Source of the DNA: Candidatus Bathyarchaeota archaeon
Lineage (GTDB): Archaea > Thermoproteota > Bathyarchaeia > Bathyarchaeales > Bathycorpusculaceae
Length of the DNA stretch: 64,000 nucleotides
NCBI GenBank assembly: GCA_003151735.1
Contig: PLYI01000106.1
Coordinates: forward strand, 1 to 64,000
Direction of reading: 5' to 3'
Shown: in pieces, positions 47,701-52,961 of the stretch
Layout: every line of letters starts with the position of its first letter
Numbering within the stretch: the first letter of the stretch is position 1
Made by a program: the position numbers and the translations under genes
The notes under the pieces: model-generated
Database searches by the model: none
What the model was told of the DNA's origin: nothing
Seen by the model: the letters and a program-made list of their open reading frames with translations, nothing else

Positions 47701-49620
47701 ATGTTAATCCAAGAAGTTATCCTTGAAAATTTCATGAGTTACGAATACGCCAGAGTACCCTTTAAGCAGGGCGTAAACATAATCGGGGGACCAAACGGAG
47801 CAGGAAAATCCTCCCTTTTACTGGCAATCTCGGTTGGTTTGGGTCAAACCTATACAGAACGCTCCCGCAAACTCAGCGACCTAATCCGCTGGGGACAAGA
47901 CCAAGCCAGAGTCACATTAATCCTGGACAACACCAAACAAGGCAACAAACGCCCCGTCTCCAAATACAGCAAAGACCAACTCTTCCTAACCCGCGTTCTA
48001 CGCCGCGACGGAAAATACTTTTTTGAACTCGAAAACCGCGTTGCCAGCAAACAAGACGTTGAGCGACTGCTGGGTAAATTCGGCGTTGACCCAGACAACA
48101 TGTTAATTATCATGCACCAGAACATGGTGGAACAATTCAGCGTACTTAGCAACATAGAAAAACTACGCATGGTTGAAGCAGCCGTGGGACTGGAGCCTTT
48201 CCGCGAAAACATAGTGCAAGCCAAAACCAAACTAACCCGCATCCTAAGCCAGGAAGAATCAGTCAGTAAACTCCTCGAGCAAGCCCAGCAGACACTCAAC
48301 TACTGGCACGAACAATACGAGAAGTATCAAGAGAAAAAGCAGCTACAGCTTAAACGTCGGTTCTTGGACCGTGAACTGGTTTGGGCAGAAGTTGAAAAAC
48401 GCGAAGCCGTAATCAAGGGATTGCAGGTGAATTTTAACAAGAACCAGCAAACTTTGGGCAAGATTGAGGATGAGAGGCAAACGATTATTGGCGAACTTGA
48501 TGGGCAGCAGACCCAGCAGCAAACACTCAGAGGCGAGGCTAAATCAGTTTTTGAGGCGCGTTTGAGCCTTGAACGTGAAATTGCACAGAACGAATCCACT
48601 TTATCGTTAATTGAACAGTTTCTAAGTGAAGCCCAAGCCTTAGAGAGTGCAGTCGCAAACAAGAACCAGTTTAAACTTCTGAGAAGCGAAAACCTCAAAA
48701 AAATGCTTGAAACCTCAAAACAGCAAATTGCCAATGCAAACGACAAAGTTAAAGAAAACCAGAAAAAAATGCTCAACCTCGAAGATTCCACAGAGAAAAT
48801 TTCAGCTGAGACACTGGATAAGCGTGTCACTCTTGGTTTGCTAGAGTTTAAGCGGGCAAACGCCATTGTCGAAATGAAAACCATCGAGAAACAGCTTAAG
48901 GAAGCCGAAGAAAACCTAAACGCAGCAATCCAAAAGGCACATCAATCTGGCGAGCGCATAGCAGTCCTTAAAACCAACGCCGAAATCCAAGATGAAATCG
49001 GCTTAACCAACGGACACTTAGCAGCTCTCGCTGACGTTTCAGAAGATATAGAGCGCCAGTATGAATCGTACTCGAAGCTTTACTTAGAACTTAAAGATAA
49101 AACGCAGTTAGTTGCTGAGAACCGCGAGAAAACCCTTGAGGAAGTCAAAACTCGCATGCAATCCTGGCGCACCGTTATGGAAAATTTGCTTGAACGGGTC
49201 AATATCGAATACCAAAAAATCATGAGCCAAACCCTTGCAACTGGCGAAGTCAAGCTTTCTAGTGCCTTAGATATTGAGACTGCTGGCTTGGAAATTTATG
49301 TTGGGTTTAAGGGTGCAAAACCCGTGGCTTTGGATGCTTACACTCAAAGCGGCGGAGAAAGAACCACCGCTACAATGGGTTTCCTGTTGGCTCTTCAGCA
49401 GCATGTCCGCTCACCCTTCCGAGCAGTCGACGAATACGACATTCACATGGACCCCAAAAACCGCGAAATGATAGCGAAGGTCTTGGTTTCAATCATCAAA
49501 GACGCCAGCGCCCAATACGTGGTGATTACTCCCAGCCAAATTACTTTTGCGCAGCATGACGCCAACGTAATTACCGTGCAGAACCTTGAAGGAAAATCAA
49601 TAGTGCGTGAGGTTGCCTAA
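47701..49620 (+). CDS. Smc5/6-like SMC ATPase, short coiled coil
   Basis: 639 residues from ATG 47701 (the open frame starts earlier at 47632). Walker A is GGPNGAGKSSLLLAISVGLG at 29-48. It is followed by LSDLIRWGQDQARVTLIL and DNMLIIMHQNMVEQFSVLSN, which match Smc6 rather than Rad50 or Smc1-4. The C-terminal signature SGGERTTATMGFLLALQQ starts at 550, Walker B is PFRAVDEYDIHMDPKNRE, then SAQYVVITPSQI; Smc5/Smc6 share SGGER-S-x-S-T, PFR-x-x-DE and QY-x-x-ITP. The two coiled arms are only about 120-150 residues each and no globular hinge or CxxC hook is seen. The stop overlaps the next gene by one base. Confidence 0.82.
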   Translation: MLIQEVILENFMSYEYARVPFKQGVNIIGGPNGAGKSSLLLAISVGLGQTYTERSRKLSDLIRWGQDQARVTLILDNTKQGNKRPVSKYSKDQLFLTRVLRRDGKYFFELENRVASKQDVERLLGKFGVDPDNMLIIMHQNMVEQFSVLSNIEKLRMVEAAVGLEPFRENIVQAKTKLTRILSQEESVSKLLEQAQQTLNYWHEQYEKYQEKKQLQLKRRFLDRELVWAEVEKREAVIKGLQVNFNKNQQTLGKIEDERQTIIGELDGQQTQQQTLRGEAKSVFEARLSLEREIAQNESTLSLIEQFLSEAQALESAVANKNQFKLLRSENLKKMLETSKQQIANANDKVKENQKKMLNLEDSTEKISAETLDKRVTLGLLEFKRANAIVEMKTIEKQLKEAEENLNAAIQKAHQSGERIAVLKTNAEIQDEIGLTNGHLAALADVSEDIERQYESYSKLYLELKDKTQLVAENREKTLEEVKTRMQSWRTVMENLLERVNIEYQKIMSQTLATGEVKLSSALDIETAGLEIYVGFKGAKPVALDAYTQSGGERTTATMGFLLALQQHVRSPFRAVDEYDIHMDPKNREMIAKVLVSIIKDASAQYVVITPSQITFAQHDANVITVQNLEGKSIVREVA

Positions 49621-50447
49621 TGCAATCCGCTAAACACGATAAGAAACTGGGCACAGAAAAGCTCGAAAGAATCATAGCCATGTGCATAGCCATCGAAAAC
49701 CGCACAGTTGAACCTTTTACATTGAACGTTGACGAAATCATAAAGATAGTACACGAGTATTTTCCGAATTGGGCAAACCCAGACGAACTAAAACTCGACG
49801 CAGACGCCCTCCACCACTTAGCCACAGTTATCAAAATGCAGAGCGAATGGGTAAAACAACGTTCAACCTCGCTCTACACTGACCCGTTCCTATTGGAAGA
49901 AAAAATCCGCCAAACCGGCAAAGAAGGCATGGTTGATGCTTTTCTTGGGGCTTGGAGTCCGCTGATTGAGTTTGAGCAACTTAGTCTCCACAGTTTAGCA
50001 CAGGGATTGCTGTATTGGGAAGCGTTGGCTCCTATGGGCGACAGATGGAAAAACATTGACGTCACTGAAGTTGCCATGGGCTCAATCAGCCGCGACGAAC
50101 TTGTTAAGCAGCGGGTTTTAAGCAACCGAGAATTCTCCGAGGAGCTGGAATGTTACTGGCAGGAACTCAAAGTTAAAGTCGCAGAAAAAGGCGCAGGCGG
50201 AAAAATTGCTTATTGGAATTTCATCGGCGCAGACTCATACGAAGAAACCGTTCAACGCGCATTTCTAACCAGCTTCTTGGTAACTTACGGTTATGCGACT
50301 ATGGAGATTGACAGGTTGGAAGAAACCGTCTTCATACTGCCCTTTGATAAACCCAGAAAGGTAGCTTTAACAGAGCAGTCCGCGTCAGTTGCAATCGCCG
50401 TTTCAGTTGAAGTATGGCAAAAATGGAAGCGAGGCGAACAAATTTGA
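49620..50447 (+). CDS. Nse4-like kleisin candidate
   Basis: 275 residues, ATG overlapping the SMC stop (TAATG). The N-terminal half is helical. The last 70 residues, from 206, read TVQRAFLTSFLVTYGYATME, IDRLEETVFILPF, then SVAIAVSVEVWQKWKRG. This follows the Nse4 C-terminal pattern: N-I-F-x-x-S-F-L-x-x-x-G-x-A-x-I, a strand ending in P, a variable gap, then I-x-x-S-x-x-D-W. A kleisin would bridge the SMC head and neck. The match is from memory of the Nse4 family and needs profile search. Overlaps the next gene by TTGA. Confidence 0.6.
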   Translation: MQSAKHDKKLGTEKLERIIAMCIAIENRTVEPFTLNVDEIIKIVHEYFPNWANPDELKLDADALHHLATVIKMQSEWVKQRSTSLYTDPFLLEEKIRQTGKEGMVDAFLGAWSPLIEFEQLSLHSLAQGLLYWEALAPMGDRWKNIDVTEVAMGSISRDELVKQRVLSNREFSEELECYWQELKVKVAEKGAGGKIAYWNFIGADSYEETVQRAFLTSFLVTYGYATMEIDRLEETVFILPFDKPRKVALTEQSASVAIAVSVEVWQKWKRGEQI

Positions 50448-51073
50448 GCAGCAAGAAAAAAGGCGTCTACGCAAGCAAAGTCAAGAAAGCAACCCAGATG
50501 CTCTTCTACAAACGGCACCAGAAGCCCGGCGTGAAAGGCTGGGAACTCCACAAAGCGCTAGGTTCCGATTACCCTAAAGTGCTGGATTTACTAGAGGATT
50601 ATCTTAAGCCGCTGGATTTGCAGGTAAAAACAGTTTTCGAAGAAGAAAAAACTCCTGAGAAACCAACGATTGAGGAGCTGGATAAGGCACGGTTCTTTGT
50701 TGCGCTGTCAAATGGCTCTGTGACTAAGGATAAGTTGATGGGTTGGCGCATAGACGATTTAGCAGGCTTAGCCATTGCAATCTCGTACATAATCAGCAAG
50801 AAGGGGCAGGCTGGACGCAAAGACATGGAGAAACTGCTGGGCGAGAAGATGCCGAACTGGAAGATTGGCTTAAATCTCGACCGCTACATACGCTACGGCT
50901 ACTTAATGCAGGATGATAAGAGACAACTGTTCTTGGATTGGCGAACAAGAGCCGAAGTAGACCAGAAAGCCTTAATCAACATGCTGCTTAACGCGGAAAA
51001 ACAAAAAGAAGAAGCCGCTGAACCGGAGCCAGAAGATGAATCAGAAACCGACGCTGAAGAGGAAGACGCCTAA
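50444..51073 (+). CDS. Nse3/MAGE-like winged-helix (KITE) candidate
   Basis: 209 residues from TTG 50444, in a TTGA overlap with the kleisin-like gene, with GAGG nine bases upstream. A first winged helix (KGWELHKALGSDYPKVLDLLEDYLKPLDLQV) and a second one (LAIAISYIISKKGQAGRKDM, LNLDRYIRYGYL) are followed by FLDWRTRAEVD. The MAGE/Nse3 domain has the same order, closing with a Y-L strand and F-L-W-G-x-R-A-x-x-E. The C-terminal 20 residues are strongly acidic. In Smc5/6, Nse1 and Nse3 are tandem winged-helix proteins that bind the Nse4 kleisin. Third and last gene of the operon. Confidence 0.6.
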   Translation: MSSKKKGVYASKVKKATQMLFYKRHQKPGVKGWELHKALGSDYPKVLDLLEDYLKPLDLQVKTVFEEEKTPEKPTIEELDKARFFVALSNGSVTKDKLMGWRIDDLAGLAIAISYIISKKGQAGRKDMEKLLGEKMPNWKIGLNLDRYIRYGYLMQDDKRQLFLDWRTRAEVDQKALINMLLNAEKQKEEAAEPEPEDESETDAEEEDA

Positions 51074-52157: not shown

Positions 52158-52961
52158 TTGGCGAAAACCAGAATGCAAGAGAACAAAAAACTGGCAGTTC
52201 TAACAGAACCCACATTAGCAGAAGCCGCTGTGCTCATCGAGAAAGCGTTTGCGCAGAGAAGAACCCTCATAGTCGCAGGCAACTGCCATGTGCATTACGT
52301 TGGCAGAGCACGCTCAACGCTGGAACCTGGCGAACGCCTCTTAATCATCAAATCTGACGGCTCCTTGCTTGTTCACCGTCCAGTAGGCTACGAACCTGTC
52401 AATTGGCAACCCGCAGGCAGTATCTTCCACGTCCAAATCAAAGAAGACGGATTAGAGGTTTATGGGGTTCGCCAGAAACCAAGGGAAAGCGTCCGCGTAA
52501 CCTTCGCAGGCATCTACATGGTCTCATCGCTTAACCTCTCCGATTCAGGAGATTTCCTTTTGCATGCGAGCGAAGAAGAGATGCACCGAGCGATTCTTTT
52601 AAAACCTGAACTTCTTGAAGAAGGATTTAAGCCGATTAGCTGGGAGAAAAAAGTTGAACCTGGTTTCGTAGATATCTACGGTGAAGACAAAAACGGCAAA
52701 TTCGTCATAGTTGAAGTTAAACGTAAAACCGCTTCAAAAGAGGCTGCGTTGCAGTTAGCAAAGTATGTTGAGCCCATCAAAGCCAAAGTTAACCGTGAAG
52801 TCCGCGCCGTGTTGGTTGCGCCAAGTCTCGGCAAAGATGTTCAGAGGATGCTAGTGACGCTGGGGTTAGAGTATAAAGCATTAGACCCGAAAGTTTGTGC
52901 TGAAGTGCTTAAGAAATCAGAAAACTCAAAGTTAGAATCATTCTTTAACGACAAAAGTTAA
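52158..52961 (+). CDS. nucS: NucS/EndoMS mismatch endonuclease
   Basis: About 262-267 residues; TTG 52158 or ATG 52173 may be the start (family proteins often begin near ATG 52173). N-terminal dimer/DNA-binding part: RTLIVAGNCHVHYVGRARST, GDRLL-like GERLLIIKSDGSLLVHRP, NWQPAGS. C-terminal RecB-like nuclease: GFVDIYGEDKNGKFVIVEVK (Asp, Glu, Lys of PD-(D/E)XK), then ALQLAKYVE. It cuts both strands at mismatches in archaea and actinobacteria, replacing MutS-MutL. Convergent with the NosD-like gene. Confidence 0.92.
   Translation: MAKTRMQENKKLAVLTEPTLAEAAVLIEKAFAQRRTLIVAGNCHVHYVGRARSTLEPGERLLIIKSDGSLLVHRPVGYEPVNWQPAGSIFHVQIKEDGLEVYGVRQKPRESVRVTFAGIYMVSSLNLSDSGDFLLHASEEEMHRAILLKPELLEEGFKPISWEKKVEPGFVDIYGEDKNGKFVIVEVKRKTASKEAALQLAKYVEPIKAKVNREVRAVLVAPSLGKDVQRMLVTLGLEYKALDPKVCAEVLKKSENSKLESFFNDKS

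Follow-up and report, generated by a model that had tools for sequence, protein, structure and literature searches.

A probable SMC-kleisin-KITE operon of Smc5/6 type, with a hingeless SMC, in a Bathyarchaeota genome

In the available text of a review (PMC10512200), SMC complexes are described as dimers held together by the hinge; Smc5/6 is the eukaryotic KITE complex, and Smc-ScpAB and MukBEF/MksBEF/Wadjet are the prokaryotic ones. Divergence of SMC proteins in archaea is described as having yielded a canonical SMC and an SMC5/6-related protein (PMC10003631), and in the accessible parts of two papers a clade of archaeal SMCs called SMC5/6-related (Yoshinaga and Inagaki 2021) groups with Smc5/6 (PMC9389158, PMC10003631). 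In the same sections of PMC10003631, NSE1 and NSE3 are listed as Kite proteins, and little is said to be known of where the remaining eukaryotic partners came from. The published literature searched, as far as its text was available, held no account of kleisin or KITE partners, of an operon or of hinge loss for the SMC5/6-related clade. For canonical archaeal complexes, six ScpA proteins were tested and none bound ScpB, according to the available part of that study (PMC7055376).

The window analyzed here is a stretch of 64,000 nucleotides from a Candidatus Bathyarchaeota archaeon (contig PLYI01000106.1). Three open reading frames at positions 47701-51073, all on the forward (+) strand, as are the features given below, encode an SMC ATPase, a kleisin and a KITE protein, and the operon very likely specifies a Smc5/6-type complex built from these three proteins, an archaeal member of the SMC-kleisin-KITE class. 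The SMC gene (47701..49620, ATG at 47701) encodes 639 aa and the kleisin gene (49620..50447, ATG at 49620) 275 aa. The KITE gene (50414..51073) encodes 219 aa from the ATG at 50414 or 216 aa from the ATG at 50423, ending in an acidic C-terminal tail. A sequence-only reading of this DNA had described overlaps of one and four bases. The first was correct, as the kleisin ATG overlaps the SMC stop by 1 base; the second requires a TTG start at 50444. Since close relatives start gene 3 at positions matching ATG 50414 or 50423 (overlap of 34 or 25 bases), the gene 2/3 overlap is probably longer than 4 bases, the likely start of gene 3 being an ATG that lies 25-34 bases within gene 2. The motifs quoted in that reading, SGGERTTAT, PFRAVDEYDIHMD, QYVVITP, MHQNMVEQF and FLDWRTRAEVD, are all present in the translations.

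The SMC head carries a Walker A motif, GPNGAGKS (residues 30-37, 47788..47811), in which G30, P31, N32, G33, G35, K36 and S37 were invariant in two alignments of 49 sequences. The ABC signature SGGE (residues 550-553) is located at 49348..49359 and the Walker B region FRAVDEYDIHMD (residues 573-584, D577 and E578 invariant in the alignments) at 49417..49452. Following Walker B, an [IVL]TP motif was found in 48/49 and 49/49 family members in the two alignments, versus 0/15 canonical archaeal SMCs, and it is also present in the Smc5 and Smc6 chains matched among solved structures. SGGER-x-x-x-T, originally put forward as specific to Smc5/6, proved a weak mark: it occurs in 27/49 and 30/49 family members in the two alignments, one matched Smc6 chain carries SGGEK instead of SGGER, and the canonical SMC of the window genome has SGGER without the T. 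Once family members had been counted, it was no longer treated as diagnostic.

Searches of solved SMCs with the single SMC sequence of the window returned Smc5 (4.3e-26, 95.1 bits) and Smc6 at the top, the best prokaryotic Smc scoring 8.7e-22 (80.9 bits). With a family profile, Smc6 (237.6 bits) and Smc5 (230.5 bits) came first among the solved SMCs listed, followed by prokaryotic Smc (182), Smc2 (157), Smc3 (133.5), Smc1 (118), Smc4 (116.5) and Rad50 (49). A profile of canonical archaeal SMCs gave the reverse ranking: Smc2 405, Smc3 380.5, Smc4 352, Smc1 338, Smc5 91 and Smc6 78.5 bits. In a tree, family, Smc5 and Smc6 were separated from canonical SMC, Smc2 and one Rad50 (87.5/94), a moderate support from a tree with long branches, a single Rad50 outgroup and only the N-terminal half of Smc2. 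The SMC is an intact ATPase whose head comes closest to eukaryotic Smc5 and Smc6, and the original assignment to the Smc5/6 type held in single-sequence search, reciprocal profiles and tree alike. The family is very probably the published SMC5/6-related archaeal clade. The statement in the sequence-only reading that archaeal relatives of the Smc5/6 ATPases had already been suggested is correct as regards the SMC clade (PMC9389158, available part).

That top similarity among solved SMCs falls on eukaryotic Smc5/6 would also be expected of a gene transferred from a eukaryote and subsequently shrunk. The family, however, forms one group in the tree (99.5/97), nested in neither Smc5 nor Smc6, while an exclusive Smc5+Smc6 group received just 23/60, and its members occur in many archaeal families; such a transfer is extremely improbable. 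A second alternative is that the trio arose by duplication of canonical archaeal SMC-ScpA-ScpB genes and then diverged, without any special kinship with Smc5/6. It can draw on the NCBIfam models best matching the window SMC, which are prokaryotic SMC models (158 and 117 bits, far under their cut-offs), and on a Foldseek search in which Pyrococcus Smc ranked first and Smc6 second for the SMC structure model. Because Pyrococcus Smc was ranked above Smc6, fold alone cannot separate SMC types; the reciprocal profile scores, the [IVL]TP count (49/49 versus 0/15) and the grouping with Smc5 and Smc6 in the tree all set the family apart from canonical SMC.

The SMC differs from those of eukaryotic Smc5/6 by its missing hinge and by arms of about 150 residues. 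In an AlphaFold2 model the protein is predicted to form a coiled-coil hairpin: a first arm, the helix of residues 165-317 (48193..48651), leads to a coil tip, an 11-residue, low-confidence loop (residues 318-328, 48652..48684) at the expected hinge site, and the second arm, the helix of residues 329-416 (48685..48948), is followed by a joint-like break. The tip falls within the least conserved segment of the protein (residues 301-330), and 102/103 full-length members measure 550-700 residues. Absence of a hinge was judged from length, conservation and the model, none of which revealed a hinge domain in the family SMC. The Pfam hinge model was not used as proof: it matched in 3/22 genomes, and a canonical SMC-ScpA-ScpB locus is present in at least 3 of the 19 genomes negative for it (G009, G017, G025), so that this model evidently misses diverged hinges. 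No zinc hook was found in the window SMC, which has no cysteine. The short arms without hinge or zinc hook noticed at the outset are borne out. SMCL-1 of Caenorhabditis is likewise an SMC-like protein without a hinge, but it lacks coils and catalytic residues and is a condensin regulator in the available text (PMC5373644), whereas the archaeal SMC has both and partner genes of its own.

Short length and lack of a hinge are shared with ASRP and RecN, and both ASRPs (ClsN/Sph) and Rad50 are SMC-like ATPases without an SMC hinge. A Rad50/ASRP/RecN-like ATPase adjoining two DNA-binding proteins by chance was accordingly considered, also in view of an NCBIfam ASRP match of 65.8 bits (far under its cut-off of 300) and a zinc-hook-like CDKC in one relative (L155). 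Most ASRPs have a zinc hook (PMC9389158, available part), whereas CxxC is absent from the SMC middle in 102/103 family members, L155 being the exception. Profile scores, with Rad50 reaching 49 bits versus 237 for Smc6, led to the rejection of a head of Rad50/RecN/ASRP type. The conservation of the gene trio, kleisin and KITE identities established independently of the SMC, and Rad50 complexes described as lacking kleisin and KITE (PMC10586767, available part) further oppose this explanation, which is highly improbable.

The kleisin was compared with both eukaryotic and prokaryotic counterparts. Its C-terminal residues 202-269 (50223..50426) resemble Nse4_C (Pfam PF08743); the window protein scored E 3.6e-5 and 24.4 bits, just below the cut-off of 26, and 27.2 bits in a six-frame search. 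Among 48 kleisins, Nse4_C matched 29 (best 3.5e-7) and gave no match in 19 at E 0.1; all other Pfam families matched 1/48 each. Searched against the PDB, the kleisin profile retrieved Nse4 (1.2e-4) and EID3 (1.6e-4), and the originally suggested Nse4-like C-terminus is upheld by these matches. Alignment of the profile with ScpA using hhalign gave 95.2%, E 2.6e-8, over 197 columns and aligned at both ends. Judged by these profiles, gene 2 can be classed as a kleisin homologous to ScpA along its length with an Nse4-type C-terminal domain.

For the KITE protein a structure model (pLDDT 87) was obtained, in which two winged helices are predicted, at residues 13-98 (50450..50707) and 113-174 (50750..50935). 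Foldseek placed MAGE/NSE1/NSE3 PDB structures at ranks 1-7 and MukE at rank 8. Pfam MAGE and SMC_Nse1 matched 12/51 and 9/51 family members, both with a best value of 1.2e-4, other families at most 3/51; the window's own KITE had no MAGE or Nse1 Pfam match. Against solved structures by sequence, the KITE profile yielded nothing convincing (best 0.12, unrelated). On the model, together with Pfam matches in a minority of members, gene 3 is classed as a KITE protein with two winged helices in tandem, its closest counterparts being Nse3/MAGE and Nse1, in agreement with the two winged helices and Nse3/MAGE likeness read from the sequence. Unlike eukaryotic Nse1, the archaeal KITE has no RING domain, and it has no cysteine.

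Kinship of kleisin with ScpA over its length, and a gene order shared with the canonical operon that this genome also carries, favor the duplicate explanation. That operon encodes a hinged SMC of 1183 aa and a ScpB that does not align with gene 3: hhalign of KITE and ScpB profiles found no alignment (0.6%), on which the identity of gene 3 as ScpB was rejected, and ScpB did not appear by name among the 50 fold matches listed for the KITE model. With gene 3 unlike ScpB and nearest to MAGE/Nse1/Nse3, and with the SMC head as above, a mere duplicate is unlikely. The Smc5/6-type assignment is the one preferred for the trio. An SMC head of Rad50, RecN or MukB type together with partners of unrelated fold, named beforehand as the outcome that would speak against it, did not occur.

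At E <= 1e-20, 128/300 genomes of the phylum had SMC homologues, across many archaeal families. The neighborhood check called for earlier showed the trio in order on one strand in 56/61 Thermoproteota loci; of the five exceptions, two were cut by contig ends, two lacked adjacent partners and one had its partners on the opposite strand. As homologues are this frequent and the trio is conserved, its occurrence in the window is not due to chance. In a DNA-pattern scan, 80/80 loci among the matches listed were archaeal by title; gene order was kept in 68/80 of these, and 4/80 had room for adjacent partners without carrying them. The window genome has one family member at E <= 1e-20 and further SMC-like ATPases on contigs C49, C108 and C123. 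ScpA was not found in 20/23 chosen genomes, and these 20 carry the family SMC; three positive controls were found. In lineages without detectable ScpA, the trio may be the sole SMC-kleisin machine.

An operon of SMC, kleisin and KITE also recalls JetABC, and MukBEF and Wadjet are KITE-based SMC complexes, MukE being the next fold match after MAGE/Nse1/Nse3. The ATPase matched PADLOC models, mad3 at 75.8 bits and LmuB at 68.6 bits, as would a defense machine of the Wadjet/Lamassu kind. JetC, however, reached 32 bits only, and kleisin and KITE matched no PADLOC model at E 0.01. Apart from the trio, only two gene clusters turn up in over 6/61 loci; one is an Lhr-type helicase, the other a protein lacking any Pfam match. 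No recurring JetD-like nuclease was recognized beside the trio. The viral-contig scan produced at least 75 loci, and those listed gave weak matches only. A defense function of this kind is very unlikely. Among the viral matches listed, most cover part of the SMC head (best E-value 4e-9), and the longest (L363) spans residues 1-620 with 22% identity at E 3e-5; being partial and weak, they look like general SMC-like ATPases, and a viral or mobile origin was rejected. One recurring gene without Pfam match lies upstream of the trio. NucS was rejected as an operon-linked gene, being near the operon in 2/61 loci only.

The likeness to eukaryotic Smc5/6 thus extends over SMC head, [IVL]TP motif, Nse4-type kleisin C-terminus and MAGE/Nse1-type KITE. 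Eukaryotic Smc5/6, made up of Smc5, Smc6, Nse4, Nse1 and Nse3, has two SMCs and two KITEs, whereas the archaeal operon has one gene of each, from which we infer homodimerization and a 2:1:2 stoichiometry. Two SMC copies would engage their heads around two ATP, with a single kleisin bridging from one copy's neck to the other copy's cap. In yeast Smc5/6, Nse4-Nse3-Nse1 hold DNA against the engaged heads; by analogy, a KITE dimer on the kleisin could do the same here. Because the tips lack a hinge, the dimer would close only at heads and kleisin, or via weak coil or tip contacts. With such tips, the complex would more likely serve repair or untangling as a DNA clamp powered by ATP than form a large closed ring. 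Support for the branching order of the family, Smc5 and Smc6 is just 23/60, so the ancestor-like form suggested in the sequence-only reading is one possibility, and loss of the hinge could instead be derived. A more tentative scenario, less likely than not, takes the complex as an archaeal forerunner of Smc5/6, homodimeric and hingeless, a motor working without tip dimerization and replacing SMC-ScpAB as sole SMC-kleisin machine in several lineages; Smc5/Smc6 and Nse1/Nse3 would have arisen when the single SMC and KITE genes of this operon were duplicated.

An archaeal trio with one gene each offers an immediate candidate for the Smc5/6 core as a whole, and a hingeless trio of this type opens the origin of Smc5/6 to direct testing. 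Its SMC is at the same time a natural test of the purpose of the hinge: if the archaeal complex clamps or extrudes DNA, the hinge would be dispensable for that step. In the archaeal lineages without detectable ScpA, the trio may organize the chromosome alone.

Three genes lie on one strand at positions 47701-51073 of the window. The first encodes an SMC ATPase of 639 aa, in which Walker A, signature and Walker B are all intact, and the second, coding for a 275-aa kleisin, starts at the last base of the stop codon of the first. This 1-base overlap is as described in the sequence-only reading; the 4-base overlap of the kleisin gene with the third gene, encoding a KITE protein, is less likely. 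Because close relatives share start positions equivalent to ATG 50414 or 50423, an overlap of 25 or 34 bases is probably to be preferred to a TTG start.

The SMC protein alone was compared with solved structures, giving Smc5 (4.3e-26) and Smc6 as top matches, followed by prokaryotic Smc (8.7e-22). A family profile of 49 relatives scored highest with Smc6 (237.6 bits), Smc5 (230.5) and a second Smc5 (189), then with prokaryotic Smc (182), Smc2 (157), Smc3 (133.5), Smc1 (118), Smc4 (116.5) and Rad50 (49). For a second profile, built on 15 canonical SMCs (the SMC-ScpA-ScpB type) of this phylum, values were 405 for Smc2, 380.5 for Smc3, 352 for Smc4, 338 for Smc1, 91 for Smc5 and 78.5 for Smc6. 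Prokaryotic SMC models led in NCBIfam, far under their cut-offs, and no Smc5/6 model was among the matches listed. Foldseek with the model of the SMC ranked Pyrococcus Smc first and Smc6 second; fold alone therefore does not settle the SMC type.

An [IVL]TP motif following Walker B was present in 48/49 and 49/49 family members (two alignments) versus 0/15 canonical SMCs. SGGERxxxT, earlier put forward as an Smc5/6 signature, was found in only 27/49 and 30/49 members and is thus not diagnostic. A tree of SMC heads was built from 25 of 46 diverse family members, 16 canonical SMCs including Pyrococcus, three Smc5/6, two Smc2 (both N-terminal half only) and one Rad50. The family together with Smc5 and Smc6 was split from all other sequences with support of 87.5/94 (SH-aLRT/ultrafast bootstrap), and the family itself was monophyletic at 99.5/97; a group of Smc5 and Smc6 excluding the family reached only 23/60. 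In a second tree, with all 46 members and without Rad50, values were 99.8/100 for canonical SMCs plus Smc2, 92.6/94 for the family and 73.9/95 for Smc5 plus Smc6.

The reported lack of a hinge and zinc hook was borne out by protein length, cysteine pattern, model and conservation. Among 103 distinct full-length members in the fetched loci, 102 have 550-700 residues and no mid-protein CxxC. The model (mean pLDDT 85) consists of a helix at 165-317, a low-confidence loop at 318-328 and a helix at 329-416, followed by a joint-like break. The tip of the coil is the least conserved part (mean frequency of the commonest residue 0.25 at 301-330 versus 0.87 at 31-60), a pattern opposite to that expected of a folded hinge, and the spacing between landmarks on the two arms varies from 114 to 231 residues across the 49 members. 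SMC_hinge was absent from the 25 most frequent of the 38 Pfam families matched by these members, which is no proof by itself because this Pfam model also misses diverged canonical hinges. The lone exception (L155:1921-5055) is 1041 aa long with a zinc-hook-like CDKC mid-protein; it falls within the family, paired with the member from locus L120 at 99.1/100 in the head tree, and a search of its genome gave no kleisin of this type.

Pfam Nse4_C was matched by 29 of 48 kleisin members (best 3.5e-7), each other family by one. The window kleisin scored 24.4 (cut-off 26), and 27.2 in a six-frame search; applied to 14 control genomes, that search gave sub-threshold matches in two. Solved structures matched by the kleisin profile were Nse4 (1.2e-4) and EID3 (1.6e-4), then pieces of ScpA at 0.12, one to the N-terminal and two to the C-terminal part. 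The C-terminus is thus Nse4-like, as had been proposed. An alignment of the profile with ScpA from this phylum reached 95.2% (E 2.6e-8, 197 columns), and a contrast alignment with ScpB 0.2%.

Similarly, the KITE model (pLDDT 87) showed the two winged helices and Nse3/MAGE likeness anticipated from sequence. All six fold matches at E <= 0.001 were MAGE, NSE1 or Nse1-Nse3-Nse4 structures, as was the seventh, and the eighth was MukE; TM-scores were modest (0.31-0.51). At a Pfam threshold of 0.5, MAGE was matched by 12/51 and SMC_Nse1 by 9/51 members (best 1.2e-4 each), other families by at most 3/51; the window KITE itself had no match. The sequence profile gave nothing convincing against solved structures (best 0.12). 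The window protein is without cysteine and therefore has no RING. Identity with ScpB was rejected, as the KITE does not align with it.

The SMC family was matched in 128 of 300 genomes of the phylum, from which 60 loci were chosen and analyzed together with the window. Both partners were found in 57 of these 61 loci, in order and on one strand in 56. Partners lie nearby on the opposite strand in L078, contig ends cut L064 and L051, and L075 and L086 have no adjacent partners, the kleisin being ~8 and ~10 kb off, respectively. Scanning one genome per species (84,980 species) with a degenerate DNA pattern for the Walker B region gave at least 119 stretches; the 80 loci returned are all archaeal by title, and in 80/80 the pattern sits in an ORF matching this family. 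Both partners follow downstream in 68 of the 80 listed loci, and the fetched DNA ends in 8. In four (L129, L140, L155, L159) enough DNA was fetched, yet the partners do not directly follow; the L129 and L140 genomes carry a kleisin at another site, and in L159 the kleisin/KITE pair follows at a distance of 4.7 kb. Some genomes occur in both sets, which are not independent. The family was also matched in 27/246 genomes from the phylum to which a Methanophagales genome belongs, and a Hadesarchaea record (L164) carries the trio; the 80 pattern loci listed included no Asgard record.

An Lhr-type helicase gene, mostly converging, was found near the trio in 23/61 loci from 12 family-level groups (L094:8777-11677, the one scanned, matching Pfam WH_Lhr and DEAD_assoc). 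Relatives of a 226-aa gene without Pfam match (L067:9327-10007) occur in 22/61 loci, spread over 15 groups, and in 14 of these loci the gene is divergent and adjoins the SMC gene. No other cluster recurred in more than 6/61 loci, and the window's own operon had neither gene beside it. These recurring neighbours suggest that the trio may be linked to DNA repair. A NucS endonuclease gene (52158-52961) lies ~1.1 kb past the operon, and near the trio in 2/61 loci only. Separately, SMC-like ATPases of ~700 aa with an odd Walker A that relatives keep are encoded in the window's genome (C49:21354-23411) and at L304-L308, where it reads GGxGxGKS.

By analogy with Smc5/6 and Smc-ScpAB, two SMC heads would sandwich ATP, a single kleisin would connect the neck with the cap, and DNA would be kept over the heads by a KITE dimer. 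In Smc5/6, clamping is mostly through Nse3, according to PMC10512200. The hinge is taken as the SMC dimerisation domain in PMC10586767 and PMC10512200. Since arms lacking a hinge would give an open V or a weakly paired rod, a large closed ring is less likely than a clamp. A nematode SMC-like protein is also hingeless, but lacks catalytic residues, according to PMC5373644, whereas the ATPase motifs here are intact. SMC5/6-related archaeal SMCs have been published, clustering with Smc5/6 (support 100/0.99) in PMC9389158; our literature search found no paper on the kleisin/KITE partners or hinge loss of the present family, which may be described elsewhere.

The genome of the window has a separate SMC-ScpA-ScpB operon besides the trio. 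In 121 genomes, a single-sequence ScpA search (1e-5) gave this SMC with ScpA in 41, this SMC only in 18, ScpA only in 24 and neither in 38. An ScpA profile search of 23 chosen genomes found the three controls and none in the other 20, 16 of which had been picked since the single-sequence search gave no ScpA (G039 and G097 of the 18 were left out). At L240 (3-895 and 879-3644), pieces of a trio-type kleisin and KITE adjoin a canonical operon, converging with it. SMC, ScpA and ScpB matches stand in a row in 30/30 ScpA loci (L223-L252, the best 30 of 65 genomes with a match). Archaeal Smc complexes are argued generally to be without a kite subunit in PMC7055376; these rows are relevant to that argument, as is the new KITE gene.
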